Made by a program: the position numbers and the translations under genes. Under the pieces are notes generated by a model. It was given only the letters and a program-made list of their open reading frames with translations, searched no databases and was not told the origin of the DNA. From NCBI GenBank assembly GCA_038049695.1, contig CP142453.1, forward strand, positions 947,501 through 1,011,500: 64,000 nucleotides of DNA, in the 5' to 3' direction. The stretch is from Cinnamomum chago. Lineage: Eukaryota > Streptophyta > Magnoliopsida > Laurales > Lauraceae. Every line of letters starts with the position of its first letter. Within the stretch, counting starts at the first letter, position 1. Positions 750-60,300 of this stretch are shown here, in pieces.

Positions 750-3700
750 TTATGGTAACTTTTCATTCATAGGCTTTAAGCCCATTCCCCTCGATGAACG
801 ATTTACTTGCTCTCTCGCTAATCCTTTGGTTAAAGGATCTGCAATGTTATTTATGGACTTTATGTACTCAATTGTCATAATGCCATTAGAGAGCAGTTGT
901 CTCACGGAATTATGCCTTCGACGAATATGTCGAGACTTACCGTTATACATTGTACTCTGTGCCCTTCCAATTGCTGATTGACTATCGCAATGAATGCAAA
1001 TAGGAGGCACAGGTTTTGACCACATTGGAATATCTTCGAGGAATTGACATAGCCACTCAGCTTCTACGCCAGCTTTATCCAATGCAATAAACTCAGATTC
1101 CATAGTGGATCTAGCAATGCATGTTTGTTTAGAAGATTTCCATGATACCACTGCACCACCAAGTGTAAATAGATATCCACTTGTGGACTTTGAATCTTTA
1201 GTATCTGATATCCAGTTGGCATCACAATAGCCCTCAAGTACAGCTGGATATTTAGAGTAATGTAAACCATAGTTTTGGGTGTATTTTAAATATCTTAAAA
1301 CCCGAACTAAGGCCTTCCAGTGGTCTGATCCTGGGTTACTTGTGTATCTACTCAATTTACTAACAGCATATGCAATGTCAGGACGAGTGCAATTCATCAC
1401 ATACATTAGGCTGCCAATTATTTGTGCATATTCTCGTTGTGATATGCCTTTTCCATTATTCTTGGATAAATGAATACTAATATCTATAGGTGTCCTTGCT
1501 GGGTTGCTATTATCTTGATTATATTTTTTTAGTATACTCTCAATATAGTGTGATTGAGATAATATCAATCCATCTGATGTTTTAGAGATCCTTATCCCGA
1601 GTATGACATCTGCAACACCTAAATCTTTCATGTCAAACTTATTGTTTAACATTCTCTTGGTAGATTTAATGATATCAGCATTACTACCCATAATGAGCAA
1701 ATCATCAACATATAAACAAATAATGACACAGCCATTGTTAGTGTTCTTGACATATACACATTTGTCACATTCATTGATCTTAAACCCATTTGACATCATC
1801 AAGTTGTCAAATTTCTCATGCCACTGCTTTGGTGCTTGTTTTAATCCATATAGAGATTTGACAAGCCGACAAACTTTCTTAGTTTGACCTGGAACATTAA
1901 ACCCTTCTGGTTGTTCCATATATATCTCCTCGTCTAATTCACCATTGAGAAATGTTGTCTTTACATCCATTTGATGTATCTCGAGATTGTATATAGCAGC
2001 AATTGCTATTAACATTCGAATGGATGTTATTCTCGTCACTGGTGAATAAGTATCGAAATAGTCCAAGCCTTCTTTTTGTCTGTACCCTTTAACAACAAGC
2101 CTGGCCTTGTACTTATCAATTGAGCCGTCTGCTTTCAGCTTTCTCTTAAATATCCACTTGCATTCAAGAGTTTTGCAACCTTGTGGGAGGTCTACAAGTT
2201 CCCATGTATGGTTTTGCAAAATGAATTCAATTTCACTGTTTATGGCCTCTTTCCAATATGGTGCCTCGGGACTGGACACTGCTTCTTTAAAGCTTTGAGG
2301 CGCATCTTCCAACAGAAATGTTAGAAAATCTGAACCAAACGTTTTTGATGTTCTAGCCCTCTTACTCCGTCTAGGTTCATCAATCTCTTGTTGGTTTTGA
2401 TTACTGCTACTAGCAGTGTCATGAGTTCTTTTATGAGAACTCATTTCCTTCGATGGTTTGTAAGGAAATACATGTTCAAAGAACGATGCATTCCTTGACT
2501 CAATAATAGTGTTATGATGCATATCGGGAATTTCAGACTTGTGAATTAGAAACCGATACGCACTGCTATTATAAGCATACCCAATGAATACACAGTCTAC
2601 TGTTTTTGGTCCTATTTTCACTTTTTTAGGTGTAGGAACCGCCACTTTAGCCAAACACCCCCACACTTTTAAGTATTTGTAAGTAGGCATTCTGCCTTTC
2701 CACAATTCATAGGGGGTTTTATTGGTTTTCTTTTGAGGTATTCGATTGAGAATATAATTTGCAGAGAGGATTGCATCCCCCCACAAATTCTGAGGTAATC
2801 CAGAACTTATTAACATAGCATTCATCATTTCTTTTAAAGTTCTGTTTTTCCTTTCAGCAACACCATTTTGCTGAGGTGAATAAGGAGCAGTAGTTTGGTG
2901 TATAATCCCATGCTGTGAACAGAATTCACCAAAAGGTGATTCATATTCACCACCTCTATCGCTTCTTATCACCTTAATTTTCTTATCAAGTTGATTCTCA
3001 ACCTCATTCTTGTAATGTTTGAACATTTCCAAGGCCTCATCTTTACTTCTCAATAAGTAAACATAACAGTATCTTGTGCAGTCATCAATGAATGTAAGAA
3101 AATATTTCTTACCACCTTTAGTTTGAACAAACTCCAGGTCACAAATATCAGAATGAATTAATTGAAGAGGTTCAGAAGTTCTTTCAATAGATTGAAAAGA
3201 AGTTCTAGTAAGTTTAGCTTCTACACATGTTTCACATTTGATATTTGAATCAAAACTACATTTAGGCAAGCATTCCATGTTAACTAATCTACGTAATGCA
3301 TCATAATTAACATGGCCTAATCTACCATGCTACACATTAGAAGACTCAAGCAAATAAGCAGAAGAGTTTTTCTTATTACGTACAATTGTCATTACATTCA
3401 TTTTGAAGAGCCCATCGCTCATATACCCTTTTCCCACGTACATCCCAGATTTAGTGAGTACAAACCTATCCGACTCAAATACAAGTTTGAAACCTTTCTT
3501 ACTCAGTAGTGAGCCTGATACCAGATTCTTACGAATATCAGGTACATGCAGCACATTGTTGAGGGTGAGTTCTTTTCCAGAAGTCATCTTCAATACCACC
3601 TGTCCTTGGCCTTCAACCTTAGAGGTGGCAGAGTTGCCCATGAAGAGTTGTTCTCCAGTTGATGCTTGATAAGTGGAGAACATCTCTTTAATGGAGCAAA

Positions 3701-20061: not shown

Positions 20062-21777
20062 TGAGACTAGAGAGACAAGGATGCACAATAGATTCAGAAT
20101 TTTATATATTTGAAATTCAAAATCAGGCACTTATTGAAATCGAAACCATCTTAAATAAGAATGGAAGATCGATCGTTGAAGGAATTCACAAATATACCAT
20201 TCCCTCACAATGAAGACACCGATTACATCTCAAATAGACTACTCCAAGAAAAGATGTCCTACAATACTGAAGAACTTATCTCTGAGTTTGATGTCTTATA
20301 TACAAAACTAAATCAGGGACAATTTAAAGTATTTCACAATATCATGACATCATGTCAAGAAAAAAATGGCGAAATCTTCTTTGTCAATGGCAGCGGTGGA
20401 ACAAGTAAGACATACTTGTGGAAAACAATTATTACAAAACTTAGAAGTGATGGCAAAATAGTTTTGGATGTTGCATCATCAAGAATACAATCTTTGTTGT
20501 TGCCAGGAGGTCGCACTGCACACTCGCGCTTCAAAATCCCACTACAACCTCATGAGACATCATGTTGCTCCATTAGTAAAAAATCAAATTTGGCTGATCT
20601 TATTCGAAATACAGCTTTGATTATATGTGACGAAGCGCCAATGATGAATAAGCATGACTTTGATGTTGTTGATAGAACTCTACGTGACATACTCAATGTG
20701 TCTAATCCCACTGCAGCCTCTAAATTATTTGGAAGAATAATTGTTGCATTCGGTGGAGATTTTAGACAAATTTTGCATGTAATAAGAAAAGGAAGTAGAG
20801 AAGATATAGTTTCTTCTTCAATTACAAAATCTTTGATATGGAAGAATTGTAAGGTTCAAAACCTAACAAAAAATATGCGGTTGCAAAATTTAACAAACAA
20901 TGATGATATGGCACAGTTTGCAAGATGGGTATTAAGTATTGGAGATGGAGATTAATGCAACTCTACCAGTGATGATGATGACGACGACTTGGTTGAGATA
21001 CCATCTGATTTAAGAATTGATACATACAATGATGAGGTTCTGCCACTGATAAACTTTGTTTATGAGAACATAGATAAGAATTATAAAGATCCATCTTATC
21101 TGAGGGATAGAGCCATCTTAACACCACTAAATGATTATGTTGACAAGATTAATGGTGTTGTTCTCTCAATGATTCCTACATAAGGGCAAACATATTTAAG
21201 CGCCGATACAATGGTGGAGTCTGATAGCAATGAAAGTAATCAAGGAATCTTGTACACTACAGAATTCCTTAATACATTAAATGTTAGTGGATTGCCAAAT
21301 CACCGTCTCGACCTCAAGATTGGAACTCCGATAATGCTGGTTCGCAATCTAAATCAGTCTATTGGGTTATGCAATGGAACGAGGCTTATTATCAAGGAAT
21401 TGAGACACAAGGTAATAGATGCAGAGATAATTACAGGAACAAATATAAGAGAACGTGTCTTCATATCACGGATTATAATGTCAACAGCTGATACAGAATG
21501 GCCATTTATACTGAAGAGAAGGCAGTTTCCAATAAAAGTTGCATTTGCGATGACAATTAATAAAAGTCAGGGACAAACACTGCAAAAAATAGGCCTCTAT
21601 CTCCCTAAGCCCGTCTTTTCTCACGGCCAACTATATGTAGCTATTTCCAGAGTCACAAAAAAATCTAGACTGAAAATATTTCTAAAGAAAAATGATGGCA
21701 TCCCTCTTGGCTATACAAGAAATGTTGTATACAATAAAGTCTTGAATGAAGTAAAAAGGCATTCCACGAACTCATAA
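20062..21777 (+). pseudogene. Helitron PIF1-like helicase domain
   Basis: C-terminal half of RepHel, a 5'-3' DNA helicase of the PIF1/RecD family that unwinds the displaced strand. The Walker A region reads GSGGTSKTYLWK (20391-20426); the family norm is GxGGTGKT, so the last conserved Gly is Ser here. Walker B is ICDEAPM near 20630. Further motifs are AFGGDFRQIL at 20752-20781, the motif-V-like KVAFAMTINKSQGQTLQ at 21538-21588 and the C-terminal GQLYVAISRVTKKSRLKI at 21627-21680. In-frame stops lie at 20953-20955 and 21181-21183, and a frameshift near 20210 joins this badly to the upstream part. Confidence 0.82.
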
Positions 21778-31125: not shown

Positions 31126-31152
31126 ATGAACCCGTGCAATGACTTGCAATGA
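31126..31152 (+). promoter_or_regulatory. uORF overlapping the HD-Zip start codon
   Basis: An eight-codon ORF (MNPCNDLQ) starts 13 bases before the main ATG in another frame and ends 11 bases inside the coding sequence. Ribosomes that use it would miss the ATG at 31139, although the in-frame ATG at 31154 (codon 6) could still be reached by reinitiation. It suggests translational damping. Confidence 0.45.
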
Positions 31153-32578
31153 GATGGCATTCTTCCCTTCTAATTTCATTTTGCCATCGCATGAACAAGA
31201 TCATCCTTCCACCTCTCTCAATCAAATCATCTCCTCATGTACGCCTCAAGATTTTCGTGGTAAGTCCTTTCTCTCTCTCCTCTCTTTTATTTCTCAAGAC
31301 CATCTTAATCTTTCAAGGGAGAATTCTCATATCCAAACCAATTTAATTGCACTTTTTGTTGATGGGTCGGCCTTGTTTTTTTGTGGTGCAGGTGTTGCTT
31401 CATTGCTGGGGAAGAGATCCTTGTCATTTTCAAGAATTGAAGGGTGTGAAGAGATGAACGGGGATGATGATCTCTCAGATGACTGCTCACAGGCTGGTGA
31501 AAAGAAGAAGAGGTTGAACATGGAACAGGTGAAGACATTGGAGAAGAACTTTGAGCTGGGTAATAAGCTAGAGCCTGAGAGGAAAATGCAGCTGGCTAGA
31601 GCTCTTGGGTTGCAGCCTAGGCAGATTGCTATATGGTTTCAAAACAGGAGGGCTAGATGGAAGACCAAGCAATTGGAGAAGGACTATGATGTTTTGAAGA
31701 AACAGTTTGAAGCAGTTAAGGCAGATAATGATGCCCTCCATGCTCAAAACAAGAAACTCCAAGCAGAGGTATATATAGATCTATATAATTATATATGATG
31801 GGACTTTTGCATGAGATCTTGTGCAATATTTGTTCTTGTTCATGTTTCTCCCAAAAAAAAACGTACGGATTTGGCCTTTTGGTTTCATGGGTCTTGAAGG
31901 ATAACCATGGGTTAGAATGATTAGAAAGTTCTTGGGTTATTGAGAGGGAGGTAGATCATGTCTTTCAGGATAGCCATCTTGCCCATCTGATATAAAGGAT
32001 CATAACTTTTCAGGATTTTTTTATTTTGTGTTTTCTAACGAACTGGACACTCATGATTTCGATAGCTACCCAATTTTTATTTTATCGGTTTCTCTCATCA
32101 TTTGATCGTTGAATGGGCGACCCCATTCAAGAATTCAATTCGATTGAAAACATTGATGGGTTCTATCTTAATTCATCATTTCTCTATCTCAATTCTTCAA
32201 TTCCTTAATGGGGTTGATTGAATGATGCAGATCATGGCGCTGAAGGGCAGAGAAACAACAGAACCAATCAATCTCAATAAAGAAACTGAAGGTTCAAGCA
32301 GCAACAGAAGCGAAAACAGCTCGGACATCAACTTGGACAAATCCAGAACATCAGCTATTGACAGCCCTCTAGCTACACATCCAAACAGACCCCTCTTCCC
32401 AGCATCATTAAGGCCCACACCCGCAACCCATCATCTTCTTCAAAACTCCACGAGACCAGAGCTCCAATGCCCCAAAATCGAGCACCCCGTCCAAGAAGAG
32501 AGCTTCTGCAACATGTTCATGGGCATGGACGATCATTCTGGCTTATGGCCCTGGTCTGAACACCACAATTTCCACTAA
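31139..32578 (+). CDS. HB13: HD-Zip class I homeobox transcription factor, ATHB13/ATHB23-like
   Basis: Exons 31139-31259, 31392-31768 and 32231-32578 join in phase with GT-AG introns to a 281-residue protein, close to the roughly 290 residues of Arabidopsis ATHB13. Residues 77-134 are a homeodomain ([18 protein letters not shown]; recognition helix [14 protein letters not shown]). It is followed directly by a leucine zipper with heptad positions L135, L142, V149, L156, L163 and L170. The N-terminus ([15 protein letters not shown]) and the C-terminus ([13 protein letters not shown]) are hallmarks of the ATHB13/23/3/20 branch. Such proteins act in the nucleus, dimerise through the zipper and bind pseudopalindromic AATNATT sites; relatives shape leaf and root development and stress responses. 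The start at 31139 is preferred because MTCNxMAFF is conserved in this branch. It is the only intact host gene seen here. Confidence 0.95.
31260..31391 (+). other. HD-Zip intron 1, length divisible by three and stop-free
   Basis: The intron is 132 bases with GTAAGT at its donor and GGTGCAG at its acceptor. Because its length is a multiple of three and it has no in-frame stop, unspliced mRNA would stay open and encode 44 extra residues between residues 40 and 41. Homologues join QDFxG directly to VASLLGKRS, so splicing is expected normally. Confidence 0.8.
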
Positions 32579-38602: not shown

Positions 38603-41600
38603 TAAATGCAACAAAATCTTTTCGTCTCTATTTCTTAAATTTATGACAAAATATTTTTGTCTCTAATTTCTTCCTTTAATGACAAAATATTTTGTCACTA
38701 ATTACTTACAAGTATGTTTCCAACATAGTGTATTGGAGACGGAAAAAAAATTACTTGTTTCCAACAGAGTGTATTGGAGACAAAAAAAAATCGTCACAAA
38801 TTTATCTTTTTCAATGACGAATTTTTTTTTTCGTCTCCAATACCTTTTAGCGACAAGGCTTTGGCAACGAAACGGGTGACGAAAAATTTTCGTCTCAATT
38901 AGTTTCGGTTACGAAATCTGTACATTTTGGGACAAATTTGTGTCGTCCTTAAACCCCAAATTTCTTGTAGTGCGAGACACCCAACAAAATCCGAGTCTGA
39001 ATATCCAATCACTTCCAAATGATCAGATTTTCTATAAGTGAGCATATTTTCTTTAGTCCCTTGTAAATATTGCGTGACCTTCTTTGTTGCTTTCCAATGT
39101 ACCGTGTCAGGGTTAGACTGATACATTCCTAATATGCTAACTGCAAAACTGATGTCTGAATGGGTCCAAGTCTGAGCATATAAAAGACTTCCTACAACGG
39201 AAGCATATAGAATATCTTGCATCTGTTTTCTCTCGATGTTATTTATTGGACATTGATCTTTGGAGAATAGATCACCTCTTGATATAGGTGCTTTTCCTCC
39301 AGAACAATTCTTCATATTGAATCTTTCAAGAACTCTATTGATATAAGCTTTCTGTGAAAGTCCTAGTAGTCATCGAGATCTATTTCTAATCATCTCGATT
39401 CCAAGCACAAAGGATGCTTCACCCATCTCTTTCATTTCAAAATTCTCTATGAGGCATTCTTTTGTTGCATGTAATAAGCCAAGATCACTACTAGCAAGTA
39501 GAATATCATCTACATATAGGACTAAAATAATGAACTTGCTCCCAATGATCTTCAGATATATACATTAATCAACAATGTTTTCCTTAAACCCAAAGGAGGT
39601 AATGGTATCATGGAACTTAATATATCATTGCCTTAAAGCTTGTTTAAGCCCATATATAGATTTCTTTAATTTACAAACTAGTTTTTCTTTGCCTTTTTCC
39701 TCAAATCCTTCTAGTTGTTTCATATATACATCTTCAGATAAATTCTCATATAAGAACGTTGTTTTTACATCCATTTGATGTAACTCTAAATTAAAATGAG
39801 CTACTAATGCCATTACGATTCGAAAAGAGTCCTTTGAAGAAACTGGTGAAAATGTCTCTTTAAATCGTTCGATTCTGCCCTTTGAGTCTCGGTTGGTCTT
39901 AAAGATCCATTTACATCCTATAGTCGCAGACCCTTGAGGCAATTCGACGAGATCTCAGACTTCGTTTAATGACATGGATTTTAACTCTTCTTGCATGGTA
40001 TCAATCCATTTATTCGAATCATCTCCTTTAATGGCTTGAGAAAATGTTACCGGATATTCTTTAACACCTATGTCAAAATCAGATTCTTGAAGATAAACAA
40101 TATAGTCATCCGATATAGCAGACCTCTTAGATTTTTGGGATTTTCTCAAAGCTTCTAGTTCTGCTAAATTTTGATTCAGATGAATAATATCTTCAATCAT
40201 ATCATTATGAGTGACATTCTCATGTAGTGGTGCATCTGGTATGATAGGTTGTATTTTCATCGTATCATTCTGAAAAAAGTCATTTGGAATACCAACTCTA
40301 ATCGTTTCAATTGGTACTTGAATAAGTAATCCGATGTTCTTCAAATACCACATTTCGTGGCGCATTGCTCCCACTAATGTCATCATTTTCTATGAATCTG
40401 GCATTTCCGGTTTCAACAATTTTAGTGGTATGAGTAGGACAGTAAAATCTAAAACCTTTTGACCTTTTAGGATATCCTATAAAATACTCACTGATAGTCC
40501 TACGGTCCAATTTTCTCTCTTGTGGGTTATAAATTCTAGCTTCCGCTGGACAACCCCAAACATGTAGATGTCCTAAACTTGGCTTCTTACCTGTCCATAA
40601 CTCGTAAGAAGTTTTATGAACAACCTTAGTGGGTACACGGTTTATGATATATGCAACTGTTTTGAGGGCTTCTCCCCATATAGACTCAGGTAATTTAGAA
40701 TTACTTAACATACTCCGTACCATTTCCATAAGCGTTCTGTTACGTCTTTCAGCCACACCATTTTGATGTGGGGACCCAGGCAATGTATATTCAGCACAAA
40801 TATCATGACTTTCCAGGAATTTCGCAAATGGGCTAGGATTTTGACCCGATTCGTCATACCTCCCATAATACTCTCCATCCCTATCAGATCTCACAACCTT
40901 TATTCTTCTGTCTAACTGTTTTTCAACTTCAGCCTTGTAGATTTCAAAGGCTTTTAAAGATTTCGATTTCTCATATAATAGGTAGACATATCAATATCTA
41001 GTGAAATCATCAATAAAGGTGATAAAGTATTTTTGACCACTATAACATGGTATAGGAAAATAACCACAAATATCTGTGTGGATTAATTCAAGTGGTTCTA
41101 AACATCTTGTGGCCTTATGTTTATTGGTGTTTTTGGTCTGCTTACCTTTTCTGCAGTCTATATAAACACCAAAATCAATAAAATCTAGGGCTCTTAACAC
41201 CCCGTCATTTACTTATCTCTTTAATCTTTCTTGAGAGATGTGTCCTAGCCTTTTATGTCACAAAATTGAGGAGTTTTCATTCAAGATTCCTCTCTTAATA
41301 CCAACATTCATAATATTATTCTCATGCAAGATAAGTAAGGAACTAGGAAAACATGGATCCAGATTCAATTTATAAAGACCATCACATAAAATACTATCAC
41401 CAATTAAAACTTGATTCTTATAAATACTCAAGGTACTATATCCAAAAGAGAAGGTATAACCTTCTAAATCAAGTCTAGATAAAGAAATTAAATTTCTATT
41501 AATCGTAGGAACATAGAAAGTGGTATTAAGGTCCAACTGGAATCCAGAATCAAGAATCAATCTGCAAGTCCCCACAGGTTTCATTTCAGCCTCCAGCCGG

Positions 41601-48100: not shown

Positions 48101-49259
48101 TTCATTGAACCTAGTCGCCTTTGAGCACAGGTGGAGGTTTCAATGTATGTCTTTTTTTCCTGTTGCAAGTCCTTTTCTGATTACTGCATGATATTCTAAG
48201 ATGCCACATCATTTCCTTAAAAACGAATGCAAACCGGGAGGAAACCTATCAGGAAAATCACCACATTATCTCATTTTCCTCTTTTGTGGCGCCTTTGCAT
48301 ATGAGGTGTGCATTGCTCTAAAAATATTGTTGCATAGAAATTATTTTCTCTGGAAAACTTTGGGATATTTTCAATTCTGTGTTCTTCTTGAGACATCACA
48401 GTAGATACTTTATTTTCCAATAATTAGATTTTTTAAATATATTGAAAATATGTACAAAATACTTCTAAAAATCGCACTTTGCATGTCAAATATTGTTCCC
48501 ATTTTTCAGATACACTCTTGGTTTTCTTGCAATATTTCCAAATATTGATGATATTTTGAAAATATTGTGATACAATTAGGATAAACATTTCCTGGTAAAT
48601 GCCACGGTAATTTCATACTATTGTCAATATTTGTGAGAATGGGGTGGAGGAACGGTACTCAATGGGCCAGGCTTAGTGGTACCAGATAATTGGTCCAAGC
48701 CTTGCTAGTTCTATTTTCAGCAAGAAATCTTGTCAAGCACAGCCCATATATAGTCCTTAGGTAAGGCCAAGGTCTGGCTCATATTCTACATGGCAGGTGT
48801 GGACTTGATCTTTGGTAGACCCTAACAGGAAAGCAACAGAAAAATTGCAAAGAATCACATCAAAACATGGGATGCACTTGATACACAAACCAAGATAAGG
48901 CCATCGGCTATGGCCCTCGGTGGGGCTAGCCTCCTTGTTAGTATTTTTATTGGCTAATTCATGGGTTAGACAAAACTCTGGGTCCATTGAATTGTATTTT
49001 CTAATTTATTTTAGAATGGACTGTGGATGTGTCACACCGGAAGAGCCGAAGTGAAGAATAGAAGAAAAGAGCGGACCAGGCTAAATCCCCCCCAGGCCCG
49101 ATCGATCGGAGCCTTAGACCGATCGATCGGTCAGAAAAAGCATCCAGTTATTTGGATGGTCCGATCGATCGGATGCACGGTCCAATCAATCGGACAACGT
49201 GCGCAGAAAACGAGAAAGTCCCCTATTTTAACAAGACACTACTAGAAAAAAGGGTTTTT

Positions 49260-49840
49260 ATATCGGTTGCAAAAACTGCCCTATATCGGTTTTTCATATA
49301 ACCGATATAATATCTTCAGTCAATGTTTTTTATATTGGTTAATATTTTTTTATATCAGTCAATTTTTTTTTATATCGGTTACACAGGAACCGACATAATA
49401 ATCTCTATATATAATATCGGTTAGAAAAATATGTGATATTAATTGCAATCTTTTATATCGGTTATTATAAAACCGATATTATATACACATATTTTATATC
49501 GGTTGTATACATATATTTTATATCGGTTATTATAAAACCGATATGATATACACATATTTTATATCGGTTGTATACACATATTTTATATCGGTTATTATGG
49601 AACCGATATTATATATACATATTTTATATCGGTTATTATGAAACCGATATTATATACCCAATGATTTTACATCGGCACGTCCTGCGGCTAACCGCCAGTG
49701 CACCTGCGGCTAACCGCCAGTTCACATGCGGCTAACCGTTAGTGCACCTGCGGCTAACCGCCAGTTATATATACATATTTTATATCGGTTATTATGAAAC
49801 CGATATTATATACCCAATGATTTTATATCGGTCTTCAAAT
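49260..49840. repeat. CACTA 2 left subterminal repeat array
   Basis: A dozen or more copies of TATATCGGTT and its inverse AACCGATAT lie in AT-rich units. Inside is a GC-rich island of four 22-bp units, TGCGGCTAACCGCCAGTGCACC, starting at 49683, 49705, 49727 and 49749. CACTA subterminal arrays normally bind the transposase. Confidence 0.85.
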
Positions 49841-49849
49841 CCCTTAATC

Positions 49850-50490
49850 GCCCGCGCGGGCTCACTCCTTCTTTCCCTCCTTTTTTTTTCCTTCCCTCCC
49901 TTCTCTTTCTTTCTCCATCGTTCCTTCTTTCTCCACTCTCTCGATCTGCGCTTTTCCCTCTCCCGCCTCCCACCAAAAGCCCTCTTTTATCTCTCTCCCT
50001 CTCCCTCTTTTCTCTCTCTCTCTCTCTATCTACGCTTCTCTCACTCTCTCTGCTATTTCTATCTCTCTCTCGGCTATTTCTCTCCCTCTCTCTCTCTCTC
50101 ACTCACTCTCTCTGCTCTCGCTCGATCTCTCTGTTCTCTCTCTCTCACTCTCTCGCTCGTTCTCTCTGCTCTCGCTCGATCTCTCTGTTCTCTCTCTCTC
50201 ACTCTCTCGCTCGTTCTCTCTGCTCTCGCTCGATCTCTCTGTTCTCTCTCTCTCTCACTCACTCTCTCTCTCTCTGCCCAAAACCGATCTGAAAGAAAAC
50301 GGTCTCCCTCTCTCGCGCCGCTGCCTCTGCTCGTCCGAAACCGATCTGAAAGAAAACGGTCTCCCTCTCTCGCGCCGCTGCCTCTGCTCGTCCGAAACCG
50401 ATCTGAAAGAAAACGGTCTCCCTCTCTCGCGCCGCTGCCTCTGCTCGGACCCTCTCTACCGTTGCTGCCTCTGCATCTCTCCCCTCTCTA
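49850..50490 (+). repeat. CT-rich leader with two minisatellites
   Basis: Pyrimidine-rich sequence. A unit of about 57 bp with the core TGCTCTCGCTCGATCTCTCT repeats three times at about 50110-50250. A unit of about 60 bp beginning AAACCGATCTGAAAGAAAAC repeats three times at about 50281-50440. It ends in a good splice donor (TACAG|GTAGAG at 50491), consistent with a 5' leader exon in front of the captured genes. A 251-codon frame across it is an effect of CT repeats. Confidence 0.75.
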
Positions 50491-50808
50491 CAGGTAGAGT
50501 AACTTTCTCATCTCTTCTCTCTTCGTTTCTATCTGGCATACACTTCAAATGGGTTGGTTTGGAATGGTGTTTGATGAGTAAGTGGGTTCATGGGTGAGAG
50601 GAAAGAAGATGCACTGAGGGTGATAGAGATGATGAAGTCAGTTGATTGATGAAGATGATTAACAAATGATAATTATGGTTTTGGTTTGTGCTGGATTTTT
50701 TGGGCTTGATTGGATGGATAGAGAGATGTTGATGTAGTGGTGAAGTTGAGGTGGTGGGATGATGAGAATGGGTTCTAATTCTGTTAGCAGCAATATCTGT
50801 TAGGAGGG

Positions 50809-51006
50809 ATGCTTGCGCTTTTCCTAGGGTTTTTCTTCTTCTCCGGATTCAAAGGAAAGAATAAGGAGAAGGAGAAGTGTTGTGCTGCGAGCAGTGAGAA
50901 GAAATCTTCTGCAGAAGGAGAATGCAGATGGAAAGATAGCGACATTGATGTAGTCGTTGTTGGAGCAGGTGCGGCTGGTGCAGCTCTTGCTTACACGCTC
51001 GGAAAG
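50809..51006 (+). pseudogene. SQE: Captured squalene epoxidase exon 1
   Basis: The 66 codons encode the N-terminus of squalene monooxygenase, the ER-bound flavoenzyme that makes 2,3-oxidosqualene for sterols and triterpenes. A hydrophobic start (MLALFLGFFFF) is followed by a Lys/Glu/Ser-rich linker and the FAD-binding Rossmann motif DIDVVVVGAGAAGAALAYTLGK (given in two parts: DIDVVVVGAGAAG, then AALAYTLGK). The segment ends exactly at a GT donor after LGK (51007), the natural exon 1 end in plants. The rest of the enzyme, including substrate-binding parts, is absent. It lies in the sense direction upstream of the CTP synthase exons. The open frame is undamaged. Confidence 0.85.
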
Positions 51007-51359
51007 GTGAGATTTTTCTTCTCAATTGATGATGAATTTGGGTTTGGATTGGGGAATTAGGGGTTTTTAGAGTGTTTGATGTTGAGAATTTGGAGGTTTT
51101 TTTTTTTTTTTTTTTGAACTATGCAACAGACAGGGAGGGGAGAATTCCGAATGTCTTGTTGACTGATTTTGTCTTGTTATTGTTTGTGTGACTACTGGTT
51201 TAGAATTCAACACTGAAATCATGGGGGTAGCCATTTAAACTTAACTGGTGTAATAGTGGGATTGTAGTTGCAAGTTGAATCTGCTACAAGGTGTAGCGCT
51301 TGACGAAACAGCCCTTTTCTTCAGTACAAGTGAATTTTTATGATTAAGGAATGATACTT

Positions 51360-51830
51360 AACGTCTTTCTTAGAAGCATTGTTCACCCATAGCGGCAGCC
51401 CAATGTGGGTTGTAGGAACAGTTCCATTCTTGCATCCCAAGGTGTTGGCCAACTATGAAGGCAAGGAGTCACTTATGCACCACGAATCAGTTCTGTCTCT
51501 GCAAATATGGATTTCTGTTTGGATTTCACTACAATACATTTCGACACGGCATTAATGTTTGTTACATGATCTTCTTTTGTAGCAACACAGAAAGCTAGAG
51601 TGTTATTAGCAAATTGTAATGAGAGACTTGGATATGGTTGTTCCCACATAAGAAGTCTCTAAAGAAGTTGGCCCTATAGTGTCTCTCACATCCTAATGAG
51701 AGCTTCTCTTTCTATGATGAAGAGGAAAGGAGATGGGATCTCCTTGTCTGAGGTTATAGATAGGCTACCACTGGGAACAACAACAATATCACCACCGGGA
51801 AGATTTACTAGGTATGGATAATTGTAACTC
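51360..51830 (-). mobile_element. LINE (L1-type) reverse transcriptase fragment
   Basis: On the minus strand, degraded frames resemble the L1 reverse transcriptase core: a GLRQGDPxSPxLF-like block (about 51735-51770, damaged) and LQFANNTLAFC (about 51595-51630), where the family has FADDTLxFC, so both catalytic Asp residues are changed to Asn. It lies between the captured squalene epoxidase exon and the CTP synthase exons, antisense to both. It is an old, inactive scrap; limits are approximate. Confidence 0.55.
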
Positions 51831-51985
51831 ACAGTTTGAACAGAATATGACTATGGCCCCTGAATTTCTTATTTAAAATCTTTAAGTATTTGCTAACTGA
51901 GCAAACACCGTGCTCTTGGTTTATCCAAAATTCTAACATCTAAAGTCAATCATTTCCTCACCTGGTTATGTTATTGGTGATTTAG

Positions 51986-52986
51986 TCTGTTATTGACAAG
52001 GAGAGACGAGGTGATTACCTGGGGAAGACTGTCCAGGTTTTTATCTTAAGCATTTCCTTGGGTTATTCTAGCATTTCTCCTCTCCTTTAGCAAAAATCCT
52101 GAACGCTTTGTTCCCATTCAGGTTGTGCCTCACATTACAGATGCCATTCAAGAGTGGATTGAGCATGTTGCAATGATACTTGTGGATGGAATGGAAGGTC
52201 CAGCTGATGTTTGTGTCATAGAATTGGGTTGGACCATAGGTAAAAGTGATTTTCAGGTTTTGTGGTTTGCAAACTCCAGGGACTATGAAGCATTTAGTTT
52301 TTTATGGTATGAGAAAACGATTCTTTTGTTGCAGGGGACATTGAATCCATGCCATTCATTGAAGCTTTGGGACAATTTTCCTATCATGTAGGTATGGGAA
52401 TTTTATTGAGCACAGATTGCTCTGAGTTACACTCGGTTGTTTGTCTTCTTAAATAATTAATCGTGTGCCTATTTAAAAATTTTAAATAATTAATTGTGTA
52501 ATCATTCAAAAAAATAAAATAAATTGTGCACCTATTTTTCTTGCAGGTCCTGGAAACTTCTGCCTTGTTCATGTCAGTCTTGTGCCCGTCTTGAACATTG
52601 TTGGCGAACAGGTAGTTATTGGCTTTATGTATAACATAGCCGGTGTGTTTGTGGATATTTGTAGTGATGGGAAGTTTAAAAATTGGCTCATTAATTTGAA
52701 ATATTTTCATTTATAAACGACTTAGTTGGGTTTGATTGGTGCTTTGATTGTTCCACATTCAGAAAACTAAGCCAACTCAACATAGTGTACAGAGACTTAG
52801 AGGACTGGGTTTGACGCCAAACATCTTAGCTTGTTGCAGTGCTAAGGTCTCTCTCTCTCTCTCTCTCTCTCATATGTATGTTTTGTGTGATTGTGTTCTA
52901 GTTTGATATTTATTTGAATTGAATGTATTGGACAGCCACTGGAAGAAAATGTGAAAGAGAAGCTGTCCCAGTTTTGTCATGTCCCG
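51986..52986 (+). pseudogene. CTPS: Captured CTP synthase exons (six, with introns)
   Basis: Exons 51986-52036, 52122-52239, 52335-52391, 52547-52611, 52763-52846 and 52936-52986 translate without interruption to a consecutive part of the CTP synthase amidoligase domain. Examples are [77 protein letters not shown] and PLEENVKEKLSQFC. CTP synthase converts UTP to CTP in the cytosol. The kept introns show capture as genomic DNA, not retroposition. The N-terminal P-loop exon and the whole glutaminase half are missing. The near-invariant GGTIGDIES reads GWTIGDIES, and other odd changes ([11 protein letters not shown]) suggest relaxed constraint. Codon phases match the upstream squalene epoxidase exon. 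Confidence 0.9.
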
Positions 52987-54274
52987 GTACATTAGCTAGA
53001 ATACAGATGTCACTCCATATGTGTTCCTTAAAATTTTCTTTCCTTTTTATGGGAATTCTAACATGCACAAAACATCACTACTAGAGATTTCGTTATTGGT
53101 TTGAATGGGAGTGTGGATGCTGGGTGGACTGAGACTCATGTGAATCAAACACCTGTGAAAGTGGAAGGGGCCATGTAGCAATGTTTGCCAGGTGAATTCT
53201 CTGACTTGCCAGGGCTTTGAAGATGAATTTTTCCACTTGCTTTCATTTTTTTTTTTTTTTTTTTTTTTGACTTGATAGCATATGAAATCATATAGGTTCT
53301 GATTTTATTTGAATGATGACTATTTGAGTTTTTGCTTTTTGTTTTTGCCTTTTGCCTTTACTTCTTCTTTTTGTCAAGAGAGATGGAAAATATGTGTGGG
53401 TGATTAATTTAGTGGATAATTCTGAATCTGTTAAGCTTTGTGATAGTAGATGTGATTTAATATTATTGTTTGTGATTACTACGTATTCTTTATTCTTTGT
53501 CCGTGTTTGTTAGTATGCAGTATCTCATGGACTTGGTGTTAAGTTTTACATTGTTTGGAATTTAGCCCCTTGTAAAGAACCCCATTCGCCTGACTTTGCA
53601 AGTGTCATGTGTGATTTGGCCTCTTACATGGTTATTGGTGGGACTCATTGGCAACTCAAATGCAAAAGAAATTGTAGATTTGGCACCTTGCAAAATCCAG
53701 CTCCATTGGACATTGCTTGTTGTTTGGTTTTAGATGATAACTAGAGACTGTTGACTGACTTATTTTGACCCTTGGTTTTCCTATGCCTTATTGCCTTAAT
53801 GCTCTTGCAGCCTTCGAGTCTCACCCATATAAAATTAGATTTTCCCTCTCTTGACACGTGCAGTGGATTAGTTCTAACTAACTTGGCATAGAGAAATAAC
53901 AAGCGTGATGTGCAGATATTCTTACTATCTTGCCTTTCTATTTCTACTTTCATTTAGTTGTCCTTATAGCATCCAAGTCATGTTTCTTGCAATTTGCAAG
54001 TGGGACCTTGGAGATTCGACCCTTCCAACTGACACCCATTACAGTGGCCATTCTTCAATGCTATAAATATATATATATATATTTATTTATTTATATATAT
54101 ATTCTAAAAATCTAATGGTGCATGCATGGCCACTTTACTACTTTTGGGGTCAAGACCATCAATGGGTGGAGATTGCATTTAGTGTTGATGGGCCCCACCT
54201 CTCTTCCACCCCAATGGTCAATGTGAGTTTATTCCCGTCAGATTAGATTTGCTAGGATATATCACAATGATCCT
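52987..54274. other. CACTA 2 interior, nothing recognised
   Basis: Non-coding. If the last CTP synthase donor were not used, translation would end two codons later (Val-His-stop). A T run lies near 53247-53268 and a TA repeat at 54068-54083. The next CTP synthase exon was not found. Possibly intron or further captured sequence too diverged to name. Confidence 0.45.
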
Positions 54275-57200
54275 TGTCACGCCCCCGTACCGAAACCTCG
54301 GGGGCGGGAAAGGGATTAAGGTATAATTATATTCTTACTTCTCCCAAGATCCGCGTGTGTGAAGACAACACATTCTGAATATTTTGCGGAAGCATTTGTG
54401 GCGTTGCGACCCGAAGTCCGTGGCCATCGGATTCCGCGTCGCACTCAACCTTTAGCCCATAGCTATTATATCAAGAATCATATCAGACTGGAGTAACCAT
54501 CACAATAAATTACAGAGCTGACAGTAACAGGATATTACATTCCCAAATATATTCAAGTTACAATTATCAATGTACATTAATTAAGAATCCCAAGAAAAAG
54601 GCTAACAAAAGCCATACAACAAGAAGCTATAAACCACTACCCAAATGTGACGTAGCTCCGATGTCAAGCTCAATGTCTACATGACATAGCCGACAAACTA
54701 ACCTGCAAAGCATGGCTCTACCGCCAACAAAAGCACTCAACTCGGGGCGAAGAGATCTGAACCTGAGTACCAAAAGTAGTGGGTCAGACACGACGGTCTG
54801 GCAGGTGGATGAAAAGAACACAATATAGCGAATAATAATACCAATGATAAATCATGCTATTTGCTCAAAATGCTGCATATAATTATACGGGTGCAAAGTC
54901 GGGAATCTCGGGGAAAACTTGTATTCATTTCAAGCACGGGTAAAACATGAACATCTAATAAAACATGTATTCATTTACGTCATCTATAATCATAGATATT
55001 TGACCATCGGGTATTCGTCTAAAACATGTATAAATATAGTGGTTTGACAAAACAAACGTTTATTTGAAACTCAAGTAAAACACAAGTATACAACAAATCA
55101 GGTATCCATAACAGCCTAGCAAAACCAATGTCCATTTGAAACATATGTGAAAATACGGATATTTAACAAACCGGGTATTCATTTAAAACAAGTGTAACCC
55201 AAGAAATCTGACAAGACTAATGTTCGTTTAAACCTATTCCAAGGTATGGATATTTAAACAAATCGAGTATCATGTAAAATAGGTATAAACATAGGAATCT
55301 GGCAAAACAAGTGTCATCTAAAACATATTTCAAACCATGGATATTTGACAAATCGGGTAATCATTTAAGACGGTATAAACATAGGAATCTCACCAGCCAA
55401 ATGTCATTTAAAACAAGGCACGGATATTTAACAATTCGGGTATTCACTTAAAACATGTATAAACATCGGGATCTAACAAAACGAGTGTCGTTTAAAACGC
55501 ATTCCAAAGCATGGACATTTAATAACTCGGGTATTCATTTTAAAACATGTGTAATCATATAACTCTAGCAAAAACCATCGATCGTTAGAAACATATGTAA
55601 AAGCATGGGTATTCGCCCAACCGGCATCCATTTAAAACATGTGCGGGTACAAAGAACAGAAAATAATATAATAATAACTGAATTTATATTGGAGAACATT
55701 AGCACTTGTTTAAATAACAACTTTCATAAAGGAAACGAATCATTTATCGGAAAGCAAGTAAACGATATAAAACATGTCGGGTATCCAAGGAATCGGGAAC
55801 TGGCAAGATGGCAACCACACGAAGCTAAGTCCTCTATCACTAAAGCGATAGAGCAATAACTAGGCCCTGATCTCAGTCACTCGAGGTGAGGAGAAACAGG
55901 GGATCTCATATCAATACATATACATATACTAGGCCCTGATCTCAGTCACTCGAGGTGAGGAGAAACAGGGGATCTCATATCAATACATATACATATACTA
56001 GGCCCTGATCTCAGTCACTCGAGGTGAGGAGAAACAGGGGATCTCATGAATGCATATACATATACTATACGGGACCACGGTAGCGAGCCGGGCATCGGGG
56101 ACCACAGTAGCAATCTGCGGTATCGAGACAAGGCCACGGTAATAACCGGGTATCGGGACGGGACCACGGTAATAACCGGGTATCGGGATCCAAGCTGCAG
56201 CTGGCGGGACAAGAGGGGGATCTCCAAGTCGGTGGATCAGACCAACAAGGTTATCCAAGCTTAGTGGTGCCGACTCATAGGTCAAATACAATCGAGACAA
56301 TGCAAGTAAATCAAGTACAATAGATATACAGGCAAGTCGGGGGTGCTCAAGGGCACACTAACATTTCATATCGGGCAATACATGTCGGGACAAATAACTG
56401 TTACTAGTGTAACTTCAATGCTTTCGGGAAAACAAGTCATGTAATGCAAATCTCGGGAAAAAGAGGTGAAACAATGAACTATAACAATTTCGGGTAAACA
56501 TATCGGTTTCAAGATCTATTTAAGTGAATAGGGGTCCCGTATGTCGATTATGACAATTACTTGGTACTCCTTGAGTTAGAAGACATTCCGGGCTCCTTAT
56601 GCACTTTTACTACTTTCAAAATCTTAACATGAGCTTATGGGTAGTACTAGGTGTTACAATAGCAAGAATCAAGATTATACACGGTCCATCCTAGGCATGA
56701 CATTAATCCGGAAACATCGACCGACCTATTCAGTCATTGAAAGGAATAGAATTTGCGATAACCAAGGAAAAAGACTTGTGTTTAGATATTAGTAAGATAT
56801 CGCGTCATTCCATCCCGTTCAAGATTGAAATGGATTGAACTTCGATGCCACCGAACCAACCGTGAGGCGTCGGCTCAAGACATCTCACCCATAGTCCAAT
56901 TAGTCCAAAAAGGGTAGCCAAGGTCCCACCTAACACTAAGAAAAAAAAATAAAAATCTCAAAATCCACCGGTCCGATCGATCGGCCAAAATTTTCTGAAC
57001 AGGGACCGATCGATCGGTCGAAATTTCTACACAGGGCCCGATCGATCGGTCCAAAAACCCTTACAGTTACTGACAGACCGATCGATCGGTCTGCACGTCC
57101 GATCGATCGGTCCTGGGCGCAGTGCAGGTCCGTGACTTCTGATTTTTCTCTTTTTCTTTCCTTTCCTTCCAACATATAATCAATCACATAAAACTATAAA

Positions 57201-58494
57201 CAAGGGGGCTTAAACACATGTTTCCAAGACATTAAAATGAGCTAAAGAGCTCCTCATTTCAAGTTCCTCCATTTCCATCCTTTCCATCTATTCCATCCAC
57301 AATAAAACTCAAAGTGGAGAAAACTCATTCATGTGAAACCATTTGAAATTCTTGACAATAGGATGCATGCACTTTCAAGAGCTTAACAAGAAAGAATAAC
57401 TCATCAATAAGCACATCTCATAATCAATATTTATCATATCAAAAACAACTATTAAAATTACCAAAACCATCAATGAAATCAAGATTTTCACCAAAACATG
57501 TTAATAATCAAAACGATCCAATCAACCACTTGCCTTTGACTCTAATCAAGCAAATCAAGCTCCTAATCACCTCTCAAGCTCAAGATCCACAATCTCTACA
57601 AAAACCCCCCAAAACAACCCTAAAATGGGTTAAACAATGAAATGACAATGAAACCTTTCAATAATCAAGGTGGAGCTTCTCTAAGGCTAGTAGATTACAA
57701 TTCTAGAAGATGGGAAGAATCACTTACTTGGATGACCTTCAAATGAGAAGAACAAGCTCAAGGGAAGTCTTGTGATGGAGGGTTCTCTTCACAAATGGTA
57801 CCAATGGAAAGCTTGCAAGATGAGGAAGAAGAAGACGGTCTCCATTTCGAGTTTGGTGAACTATTGGTGTGGCTTGGAGATGAAGAAGCAAGAAGAAGAA
57901 GAGAGCACAAGGAACCCTAGGCTCAATAGTTGCTGATTTGTGCTGGAAATGAAGATGGGGAAGAAGGGAGGTGGGTTCTCTTATAGCAAGTGAGAAGGGG
58001 TCCCATAACTTAAGGGACTTGGGTGGCTGAAATCATCTAATTCGGGACCTTGGATGGATTCGACGAAGAAGGAAGAAATGATCGTCGAAATATCTAGTTT
58101 CCAAAAAGTATATGTTTCGCGGGTTTTGGGAATATCGAGTTTTGGGTACAGATTTGGTGTGAAAAGACTGTTTTGCCCTCAAGGCCAAGAAATCGGTTTT
58201 TGGGTTCTCAAATGGATACGAGATCAACATGAAAGTTGTAGGATTCCTCAAGATGAATGCAATGGGCTAAAAACACGATACGAAACCAATCGGGAAAATC
58301 TCACAAGTAAAAGCAAAGCCGAAAAGGGAACCCCCAAAGGGCCCCACAAGCTACCAAAGCACTCAAAAGCCCAAAACTAGAAGAAAAATCATGCTAGCTC
58401 ACAAACTCAACCCAACAAATACTAATCCCACTAAAAGAACTAATCCACAAATAAGACAACACTAATCCAAGAGATTAGGGGTCGGGTTCTCACA
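54275..58494. mobile_element. Long gypsy-like solo LTR, TSD ATCCT (fossil)
   Basis: The block starts TGTCACGCCCCCGTACCG and ends GGTTCTCACA, and ATCCT stands on both sides (54270-54274 and 58495-58499), the expected TG...CA ends with a 5-bp target duplication. It has no reverse transcriptase or other domain and no internal LTR pair was found. The simplest reading is therefore a single very long LTR, as known from Tekay/Del-type gypsy elements. It contains tandem arrays (55862-56185) and five CCGATCGATCGG palindromes (56973-57110). A perfect target duplication and placement inside CACTA 2 suggest a later insertion followed by LTR-LTR recombination. Confidence 0.75.
55862..56190. repeat. Tandem arrays inside the long LTR (69-bp and about 28-bp units)
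   Basis: The unit beginning AGGCCCTGATCTCAGTCACT recurs at 55862, 55931 and 56000, exactly 69 bp apart and almost identical. Directly after it, a second array of about 28-bp units around GGGACCACGGTAATAACCGG runs at about 56068-56188. Tandem arrays like these are common in long gypsy LTRs. Confidence 0.9.
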
Positions 58495-58689
58495 ATCCTA
58501 GCATTGCACATTGAATTTTACTTTTGCAGAGGTGAGAATCATGTAAAGACAGCAAATGAGAAGTCTCCTTCATGGGCAAAAGGGGCTGGTCGGTTAGTGG
58601 GGTCGGACAGGAAAACAAGGTCCATTTCACCTTTTGCATGACTCCAGCACTGGTGTGTACTTCTAGTAATGAGTTTCACATGCTTTTGT

Positions 58690-59040
58690 CCAGGATTGCT
58701 CATGGCTAGCCGTAGGAAAAGTTGGGGGCTAGCCGTGAGGCAAAGTTGGTCAGAAAATTCAAATCAGGATTGCTCACGACTAGCCGCATGAAAAGTTGGG
58801 GGCTAGCCGTGAGGCAACCGCAGGGGTGACCACAAGATGGTTCTAAAAAAATCGGTCTCTGGAAATCAAACCGTAATCCCACGGTTAGCATTGCGGCTAG
58901 CCGTAGGTGCACTGGCGGTTAGCCGTAGGAAGCACAGAAAATCATCCTGAAAAAAAAAATGCTTACTGGAAAACTGACCGTGGGTCTGGCGGCTAGCCCC
59001 CTTGCAAAGGGCGGCTAGCCGCCAGGTGACCGTAAGGTCA
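58690..59040. repeat. GGCTAGCCG-rich palindrome cluster in CACTA 2
   Basis: At least five perfect GGCTAGCCG copies (58704, 58727, 58801, 58895 and 59013) and several one-base variants. A 74-bp unit starting AGGATTGCTCA is duplicated at about 58693 and 58767. The 19-mer at 58906-58924 is the exact reverse complement of one in the left subterminal array (49686-49704). Confidence 0.8.
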
Positions 59041-59089
59041 CCTGACCCTTTTTAGAAGGACTATTTATAATAAAAAAAATGCATATATA

Positions 59090-59690
59090 ATATTAAATCG
59101 GTTACAGAACAAACGATATAATACAATCCCAAAAAACCGATATTATAAATAATTTTTATATCGGTTTCACTCTTTTTTATATCGGTTTTATAATAATGTA
59201 TGCTATAATTTCAGTTTCAAAACACATCAGTTCTCCGAAAACCGATATTATAAATATTTTTTATATCGGTTTCACTCTTTTTTATATCGGTTTTACAGTA
59301 ATGTATGCTATAATTTCAGTTTCTAAACACATCAGTTCTCCGAAAACCGATATTATAAATATTTTTTATATCGGTTTCACTCTTTTTTATATCGGTTTTA
59401 CAGTAATGTATGCTATAATTTCAGTTTCTAAACACATCAGTTCTCCGAAAACCAATATTATAAATATTTTTTATATCGGTTTCACTTTTTTTATATCGGT
59501 TTTACAGTAATATGTGTTATAATTTCATGTTCAAAAGACATCAGTTGTCTAAAAACCGATATGAAATAATACACATATTATATCGGTTATAGTTATTTAT
59601 TATATCGGGGGTACTTATATCGGTTTGAAGTTTACTAAAAAACAGATATAATAGGACTTTTATACCGGTTTTTAGCCGATATAAAAACCC
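59090..59690. repeat. CACTA 2 right subterminal array, 105-bp units
   Basis: ATGTATGCTATAATTTCAG recurs at 59196, 59301 and 59406 (105-bp spacing), with a fourth, more diverged copy near 59510. Each unit has two or three ATATCGGTT motifs. A 104-codon ORF here is only the translated repeat. Confidence 0.88.
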
Positions 59691-60300
59691 TTTTTTTCTA
59701 GTAGTGAGAATTAGTTTCCCTTTGAGACTATCTTTCCCAGTTTGAGTCATACTTGTGCACTAAGTCTAAAGCACGAATTTGGGGCTATTTATAGGGTGTT
59801 ACTCTCAACCTTAGAAGACACCAAGACACACAACTCTCATTGATCTGAGTCATAGATATCTTAGAGAGAGTTTATTCTCTTGAGCCATTGAGAGACTATT
59901 CTGAATGGCTGCTCTAGAAGGTTGTTGCTGCTTCTACTTTACTTGTAGAAGATTGATCATCTTGGTTGACAAGGTGCGGAGAGATCAAGTAAAGAGAACG
60001 GGGCGCGGTGGATGTCGTGTCAGTGGATTCTTTGCAAGAACAACTACATCCCTTAGGTCGAAGTACAGACTGAGGTAAAGGAGCTTGTGAGTATATCTTG
60101 TAACCGTTCGTGAACTCTTGATTTCTTATTCGTGGTTTTTCTCCCTAGATAGGGTTTCCACGCTAAATATTGTGTCTGCCTTCTTGTGGTGTGTGATTGG
60201 TAGATAGCTAGTTCTATATTGTTTGATTGGTTTATTTCCGCTGCATTGATTGGTTAAATTAGAACTAGTAATCCATTCTAATATCCCTCAAGGAAATTTT

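Follow-up and report, generated by a model that had tools for sequence, protein, structure and literature searches.

Probable stepwise exon shuffling by a Pack-type CACTA family in Cinnamomum chago, with a chimeric product that shows no sign of being a gene

Results

The window analysed here is a 64,000-nt stretch of Cinnamomum chago DNA (contig CP142453.1, positions 947,501 to 1,011,500, forward strand), and positions 49237-59706 of it are occupied by a CACTA element whose terminal inverted repeats (TIRs) begin CACTA at both ends, with AGA on either side. The 5' TIR, CACTACTAGAAAAAAGGGTTTTTATATCGG, lies on the plus strand at 49237-49266 and is preceded by AGA at 49234-49236; the 3' TIR, on the minus strand at 59676-59706, has the same letters with one extra A and is followed by AGA at 59707-59709. 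Genome-wide, with up to two mismatches, the TIR pattern has 592 forward and 584 reverse matches, and the reversed control has 0. Subterminal repeats (TATATCGG together with GCGGCTAACCG/GGCTAGCCG-type motifs) recur close to either end, and no transposase was seen by eye in element frames of at least 120 amino acids. Host-gene cargo with an identifiable parent, the criterion for a Pack-TYPE element, is present as pieces of squalene epoxidase (SQE; parent L018) and CTP synthase (CTPS; parent L028). The first-pass annotation had described captured and fused host exons within a CACTA transposon, and the TIRs, the target-site duplication (TSD) and both parents bear this out.

Other features lie elsewhere in the window. 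PIF1-like helicase frames at 20155-21777 are probably part of a Helitron, a homeodomain-leucine zipper frame at 31130-31798 is likely a host gene, and Copia-type polymerase frames stand on the minus strand at 750-3329 and 40307-40990, one of them with RVT_2 and integrase domains. Outside the window, nine CACTA ends in the same orientation, spaced by about 1.77 kb, form a tandem array at G000 C1:89889977-89904147 that is seemingly CACTA-derived.

The left part of the element carries a TC-rich leader exon of the CACTA family (49861-50493, plus strand, its start being predicted), which has no ATG in the window copy. A leader with a splice donor had been noted earlier at 50491; the leader stands and belongs to the transposon family, and the donor GT is at 50494-50495. 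The predicted leader intron (50494-50787, plus strand) contains 17 ATGs, ends at the acceptor TTCTAATTCTGTTAG and lacks 267 nt that are present in the SQE-only element L015. The 3' part of the leader, from 50380, recurs in related elements, and sequence common to elements with other cargo stops at 50776. In the predicted spliced RNA of the window copy, the first AUG is that at 50809.

Captured SQE DNA follows on the plus strand at 50786-51770 and comprises exon 1, to 51006, and part of intron 1. Since the capture begins inside host exon 1, the native start codon is absent, and the ATG at 50809 is internal to the parent protein. A native start at 50768, frameshifted by a 1-nt deletion, was considered and dropped, as comparison with the host gene places the start of the capture at 50786, past the native start. 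A 9-nt filler, CTGGGAACA, occupies 51771-51779 and is apparently templated. Captured CTPS DNA then runs on the plus strand from 51780 to 53075, with a truncated exon that has no acceptor (51780-51811) and six exons with AG/GT borders and retained introns (51986-52036, 52122-52239, 52335-52391, 52547-52611, 52763-52846 and 52936-52986). The truncated exon ends TAC-TAG in the window copy and TAC-CAG in the three other chimeric copies described below.

These pieces agree with the first-pass description of an SQE exon (50809-51006, 198 nt, ending in phase 0 at a GT donor) upstream of six CTPS exons with GT-AG borders, and the joined frame of 208 open codons, to which read-through adds Val-His-stop, was reproduced. 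Protein searches identified the CTPS part (best phmmer E 5.3e-57; Pfam CTP_synth_N, 6.2e-52), with further confirmation from PDB. The identity of the SQE piece follows from its 96.3% DNA identity to L018, where SE-domain exons follow on the same strand. That the SQE and CTPS exons join in phase would need no special cause, since any two intron phases would agree by chance in at least about a third of cases.

Cargo is not confined to these two genes. Ten nucleotides, CACTACTAGA, identical to the CACTA terminus, lie at 53076-53085 (plus strand) between CTPS and the end of an amidophosphoribosyltransferase (PurF) frame, which runs on the plus strand from 53086 to 53178 and ends in GLNGSVDAGWTETHVNQTPVKVEGAM and a stop. 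By sequence comparison, DNA common to a PurF-carrying CACTA relative, L046, extends on the plus strand over 53086-54274 and resumes at 58495-58694. The L046 frame matches plant amidophosphoribosyltransferase 2 (E 8e-61), and the first 340 nt of L046 are 81% identical to a subterminal part of the window's CACTA family. As a side observation, 53086-54274 corresponds to three stretches 1.1 and 2.0 kb apart in L046 that adjoin directly in the window and in L027, as though by splicing or internal deletion. The PurF-related DNA is interrupted by a secondary insertion of 4220 bp at 54275-58494, with TG...CA ends and a TSD of ATCCT (54270-54274 and 58495-58499); it resembles a solo LTR or another LTR-derived piece. 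At 58757-59706 the right end of the element matches SQE-only elements at 82-92% by sequence comparison. The fusion of SQE and CTPS in the first-pass annotation thus stands, and that two-gene account had missed the PurF piece from 53086, the stepwise fusion and the 4.2-kb insertion.

Both parent genes, which the earlier reading had proposed to locate, were found in the source genome (1.06 Gb), each about 96% identical to its captured piece. The SQE parent, L018, lies on C4 at 16.70 Mb and matches over 985 nt (L018 2505-3481). The CTPS parent, L028, lies on C4 at 86.78 Mb and is 95.5% identical over L028 2701-4023; read by eye, its exons run from MKYVLVTGG through to the end of the glutamine amidotransferase. 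Among other candidates, L019-L022 were dropped as SQE parents because they are themselves elements, L023 was dropped as CTPS parent at a dS of about 0.5, and an origin of the CTPS piece in another species was dropped once L028 had been found. As introns are kept and the CTPS part of the chimera starts mid-exon, DNA and not spliced RNA was captured.

The whole query was matched at four places (C3, C12, C1 and C4) at 97-100% identity, giving the window copy and the copies c12, c1 and c4. All four full-length chimeras have the identical junction of SQE to 51770, filler and CTPS from 51780, which, being present on four contigs, excludes the assembly error that had been raised as an alternative. 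CACTA-beginning TIRs with one or two base differences are present at both ends in 4/4 copies, and the 3-bp TSDs are exact in three (AGA/AGA, AAG/AAG and ATG/ATG) and imperfect in one (GAA/AGA). Its presence at four unrelated sites with TIRs of its own indicates that the chimera moved as a unit. The 4220-bp insertion is found in the window copy and is missing in the three other chimeras. The unity of the four rests on the shared junction, because the SQE tree does not group them and support for the chimera group in the CTPS tree is only 86/93.

Additionally, at least 7 further places carry SQE without CTPS and at least 22 carry CTPS without SQE (51 matches among the best 40 of 63 candidates); these counts omit both parents and four CTPS paralogue loci and, as each genome search scored the best 40 candidates per query, are lower bounds. 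All 7 SQE-only places and 13 of the 22 CTPS-only places were inspected, most of the latter as stretches of 1-4 kb. Both CACTA ends were found in 6/7 SQE-only copies, with an exact TSD in 5/6, and the seventh, L016, has ends with a few changes. Among copies with CTPS, L027 also carries PurF and has the left end of the window's CACTA family, and L007 and L008 match the sequence of L027 to the left of CTPS. Parental flanks extend past the chimera's breakpoint in L015-L017, which hold L018 2505-4450, and in L007 and L008, which hold L028 2635-4200. Since they keep more parent-gene sequence, such single-cargo copies are not simple deletion products of the chimera. Separately, four CTPS copies (L037, L039, L040 and L041, on C1, C12, C11 and C6) are 99.7-99.9% identical over about 1.1 kb, and at least three more places score as L039-L041 do; these CTPS-carrying copies represent a recent burst.

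The order CTPS-CACTACTAGA-PurF was present in all eight fetched copies of one clade (the window, c1, c12, c4, L027, L036, L044 and L045; support 99/97). The host gene L028 and three further copies extending this far (L007, L008 and L043) have the uninterrupted sequence CAT-GTTTTCCAGG. At the SQE/CTPS junction, the filler and the ACCA to its left together form ACCACTGGGAA, which CTPS contains 11 nt past its breakpoint; an equally good match was given by 6 of 20000 random fillers, in a test made once the match was already known. The chimera's left part and right end match SQE-only copies. No chimera-type right end appeared in the stretches examined of L027, which stop short of its right TIR, or of L046, which do not include its 5' TIR; those of L007 and L008 likewise do not reach the ends, and the donor elements were not seen whole.

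Substitutions relative to the parents provide no sign of constraint. The window copy has 0 synonymous and 7 nonsynonymous changes in SQE and 2 and 9 in CTPS (2 and 16 in total), and the corresponding synonymous/nonsynonymous counts in c1, c12 and c4 are 0/3, 0/4 and 0/4 for SQE and 3/5, 2/8 and 3/7 for CTPS. Exons and introns of the window copy have diverged to a similar extent, both in CTPS (exons 11/426, 0.0258; introns 21/837, 0.0251) and in SQE (exon 7/214, 0.0327; intron 20/757, 0.0264). Across 15 rows (14 element copies and host L028; L039, L040 and L045 were omitted as near-identical to kept rows) we counted 20 synonymous and 44 nonsynonymous distinct codon changes, the latter including three stops, against a neutral expectation of 72-77% nonsynonymous. 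Neither these rows nor the window copy (16/18) departed from a neutral nonsynonymous fraction of 0.74 (binomial p 0.32 and 0.19, respectively). The host paralogues L028 and L023 differ by 36 synonymous and 3 nonsynonymous changes (Fisher p 6.5e-10). The window copy carries 25 private substitutions, 14 of which are C to T or G to A. Neither the substitution counts nor the comparison of exons with introns revealed purifying selection acting on the fused frame, although with four young copies that have diverged by about 2.5%, selection that is weak or very recent would easily be missed.

The window CTPS has lost residues common to L028 and human CTPS (P>L, G>W, R>Q and R>C). The change from GGTIG to GWTIG is confined to the window copy, as the three other chimeras keep GGTIG, and the earlier argument that it speaks against CTPS activity is upheld. 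An open frame with all splice borders intact is found in 2/4 chimeras (window and c12); c4 has a stop in the last exon, and in c1 the acceptor before the last exon has changed from AG to AA. Upstream of the SQE start, c12 has a leader ATG at about 375 nt, and c1 and c4 have ATGs from about 757 and 788 nt.

The leader is not specific to the chimera. A 244-nt leader query gave at least 42 matches among the best 40 of 44 candidates, and 37 of these cover at least 200 nt, 11 being SQE-bearing copies and 26 not. In all eight places fetched from the 26, the leader reaches window position 50776 with a few changed bases. Beyond it lies a sequence we call fragment A in L047, L048 and L051, a stretch with a subtilase frame (PDB E 4.2e-30) in L050 and L054, and a sequence B in L049 and L052, which L053 leaves after about 21 nt. 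Fragment A looked by eye like a leucine-rich-repeat kinase; the frames of it that were compared with Pfam hit no family at E 0.001, and it is left unnamed. In copies outside leader elements, fragment A begins 0 nt and the subtilase stretch about 8 nt behind 50776; because related copies lie near them, these copies are taken as host loci.

At least three captured fragments (SQE, subtilase and fragment A) appear to be joined within about 10 nt of the leader point 50776, and in L015-L017 SQE sits between the leader and fragment A. The letters TTCT are common to the leader and host A at their junction. In L050, part of the leader intron recurs at the junction and just past it, no exact repeat of this kind is present in L054, and at the SQE/leader junction no clean microhomology was definable. 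In 12 places sequence B starts 0-7 nt past the leader matches, and it may belong to the family itself. The data do not support a uniform slot across every leader element, given that B directly follows the leader in those 12 places and that L053 departs from B early. We also observed that pieces 136-229 and 224-518 of B, contiguous in leader elements, lie 3-15 kb apart at G000 C7:11465131-11477732 and two similar C7 places, possibly a gene with introns or insertions.

Discussion

We have described stepwise exon shuffling by a Pack-CACTA family, the product of which shows no sign of being a gene. The element in the window is very probably a Pack-type CACTA element that is non-autonomous and whose chimeric cargo was put together passively. 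One genome holds the parents, single-cargo copies, a CTPS-PurF intermediate and the end product side by side, with their junction scars kept, and together these provide a worked example of multi-gene chimera building by CACTA elements. This supports the fusion of cargo-bearing copies as a route of exon shuffling.

The junctions suggest an order for two fusions. On the simplest reading, CACTACTAGA at 53076 would be the relic terminus of an inserted element. A PurF element with a deletion starting just after its tenth base would have landed in the intron of CTPS DNA that another element already carried, and the left end of the outer and the right end of the inner element would afterwards have moved as one, as a CTPS-PurF block. 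The chimera is a second-order product, with the CTPS-PurF block inside an SQE element. The block may have entered the SQE-type element by microhomology-guided template switching during break repair, a mechanism suggested by the match of ACCACTGGGAA behind the CTPS breakpoint. Alternatively, a single repair event copying two genes could have brought SQE and CTPS together, a reading favoured by the traces of template switching at 51770-51780, namely the templated filler and the microhomology. However, SQE and CTPS each occur alone elsewhere with longer parental flanks, the chimera's PurF junction is common to CTPS-PurF copies without SQE, and the P>L change is shared by the chimera with two such copies, L027 and L036. 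We consider one-step assembly most improbable and retain the fusion of cargo-bearing copies.

The first-pass annotation had suggested a transcribed chimeric gene or, alternatively, a source of small RNAs against both parents. The element may be transcribed from its own leader. With a leader and donor upstream, and with the ATG at 50809 the first AUG if the leader intron is spliced, transcription and some peptide from the window copy are possible. A new host gene would require that this SQE-CTPS fusion be transcribed, spliced, translated from 50809 and kept by selection; the open 208-codon frame, the intact splice borders and the ATG-free leader of the window copy are what such a gene would have. 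However, the substitution pattern is neutral, residues conserved between L028 and human CTPS are lost, the native SQE start is missing, c4 and c1 are disrupted, and c12, the other open-frame copy, has its leader ATG upstream. Neutral substitution had been named beforehand as one half of the evidence that would speak against a maintained gene, the other half being the lack of a transcript across 51006/51986, and the exons do diverge like introns. There is thus very little chance that a working host gene is present.

The chimeric protein looks to be not maintained by selection, and the locus resembles transposon cargo rather than a working new gene. The open frame and complete splice borders in two of four copies count against the reading as passive cargo; an open frame with intact splice borders is in itself no evidence of function. 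A role through RNA, in which element transcripts or siRNAs would act on host SQE and CTPS mRNAs, is somewhat less far-fetched and still unlikely. The window exons differ from host exons at just 18/640 compared sites and lie in sense behind a leader, and SQE or CTPS pieces occur at 33 or more places (4 + 7 + 22). Against this, the window pieces are in sense only, so a second strand would have to come from elsewhere, and the exons show no constraint beyond that of the introns. Passive assembly of transposon cargo is therefore the reading we keep.

It is also conceivable, though we hold the idea tentatively and rather doubt it, that the CACTA family owns a launch cassette of leader exon, donor and intron with a recurrent cargo slot. 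The SQE, CTPS, PurF and subtilase cargoes are all in sense (4/4), and agreement in either direction would arise by chance with a probability of 1/8. Joins at the slot were perhaps made by microhomology-guided template switching. If the cassette reading were true, captured exons could come to lie in sense behind a transposon first exon, and the family would be a repeated natural exon trap and not a random packer.

Several known systems are comparable. Pack-MULEs, which belong to another superfamily, carry pieces of captured genes, some of which are expressed by promoters lying in the element or at its edge; the window element likewise carries captured gene fragments but belongs to the CACTA superfamily. 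Among CACTA elements, Tgm-Express1 of soybean is described as holding fragments of several host genes with their introns, fused exons and chimeric open frames, and its chimeric RNAs were shown to start at the host F3H1 promoter (PMC1947982). The window element resembles that description in its several host-gene fragments with introns, fused exons and open frames. It differs in that its leader is the element's own, its fusion history can be read from related copies, and it is known here from DNA alone. The Tpn1 family of Japanese morning glory is reported to comprise hundreds of CACTA elements, most of them non-autonomous, in which the ends are conserved and the interior comes from host genes; some are transcribed (PMC5105172). 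The family studied here is similar in having mostly non-autonomous elements whose ends are conserved and whose interiors have given way to host genes; unlike in that account, the junctions give the order of two fusions, and several cargoes abut a single point of the leader.

In the tandem-insertion model for Arabidopsis Pack-CACTA elements, neighbouring elements lose their facing ends and move as a hybrid with the intervening DNA (PMC13317346, PMC8903248). The internal 10-nt CACTACTAGA is what an event of the kind outlined there could leave, although here the second element lies inside DNA that was seemingly already carried by another element. For Chenopodium CACTA elements, captured gene fragments are also described in the 5' region, and it is this region that was called prone to capture of foreign DNA (PMC8978399). 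The captured fragments of our element likewise lie in the 5' region; a leader exon and a breakpoint common to several elements, as in the family studied here, do not form part of the Chenopodium description.
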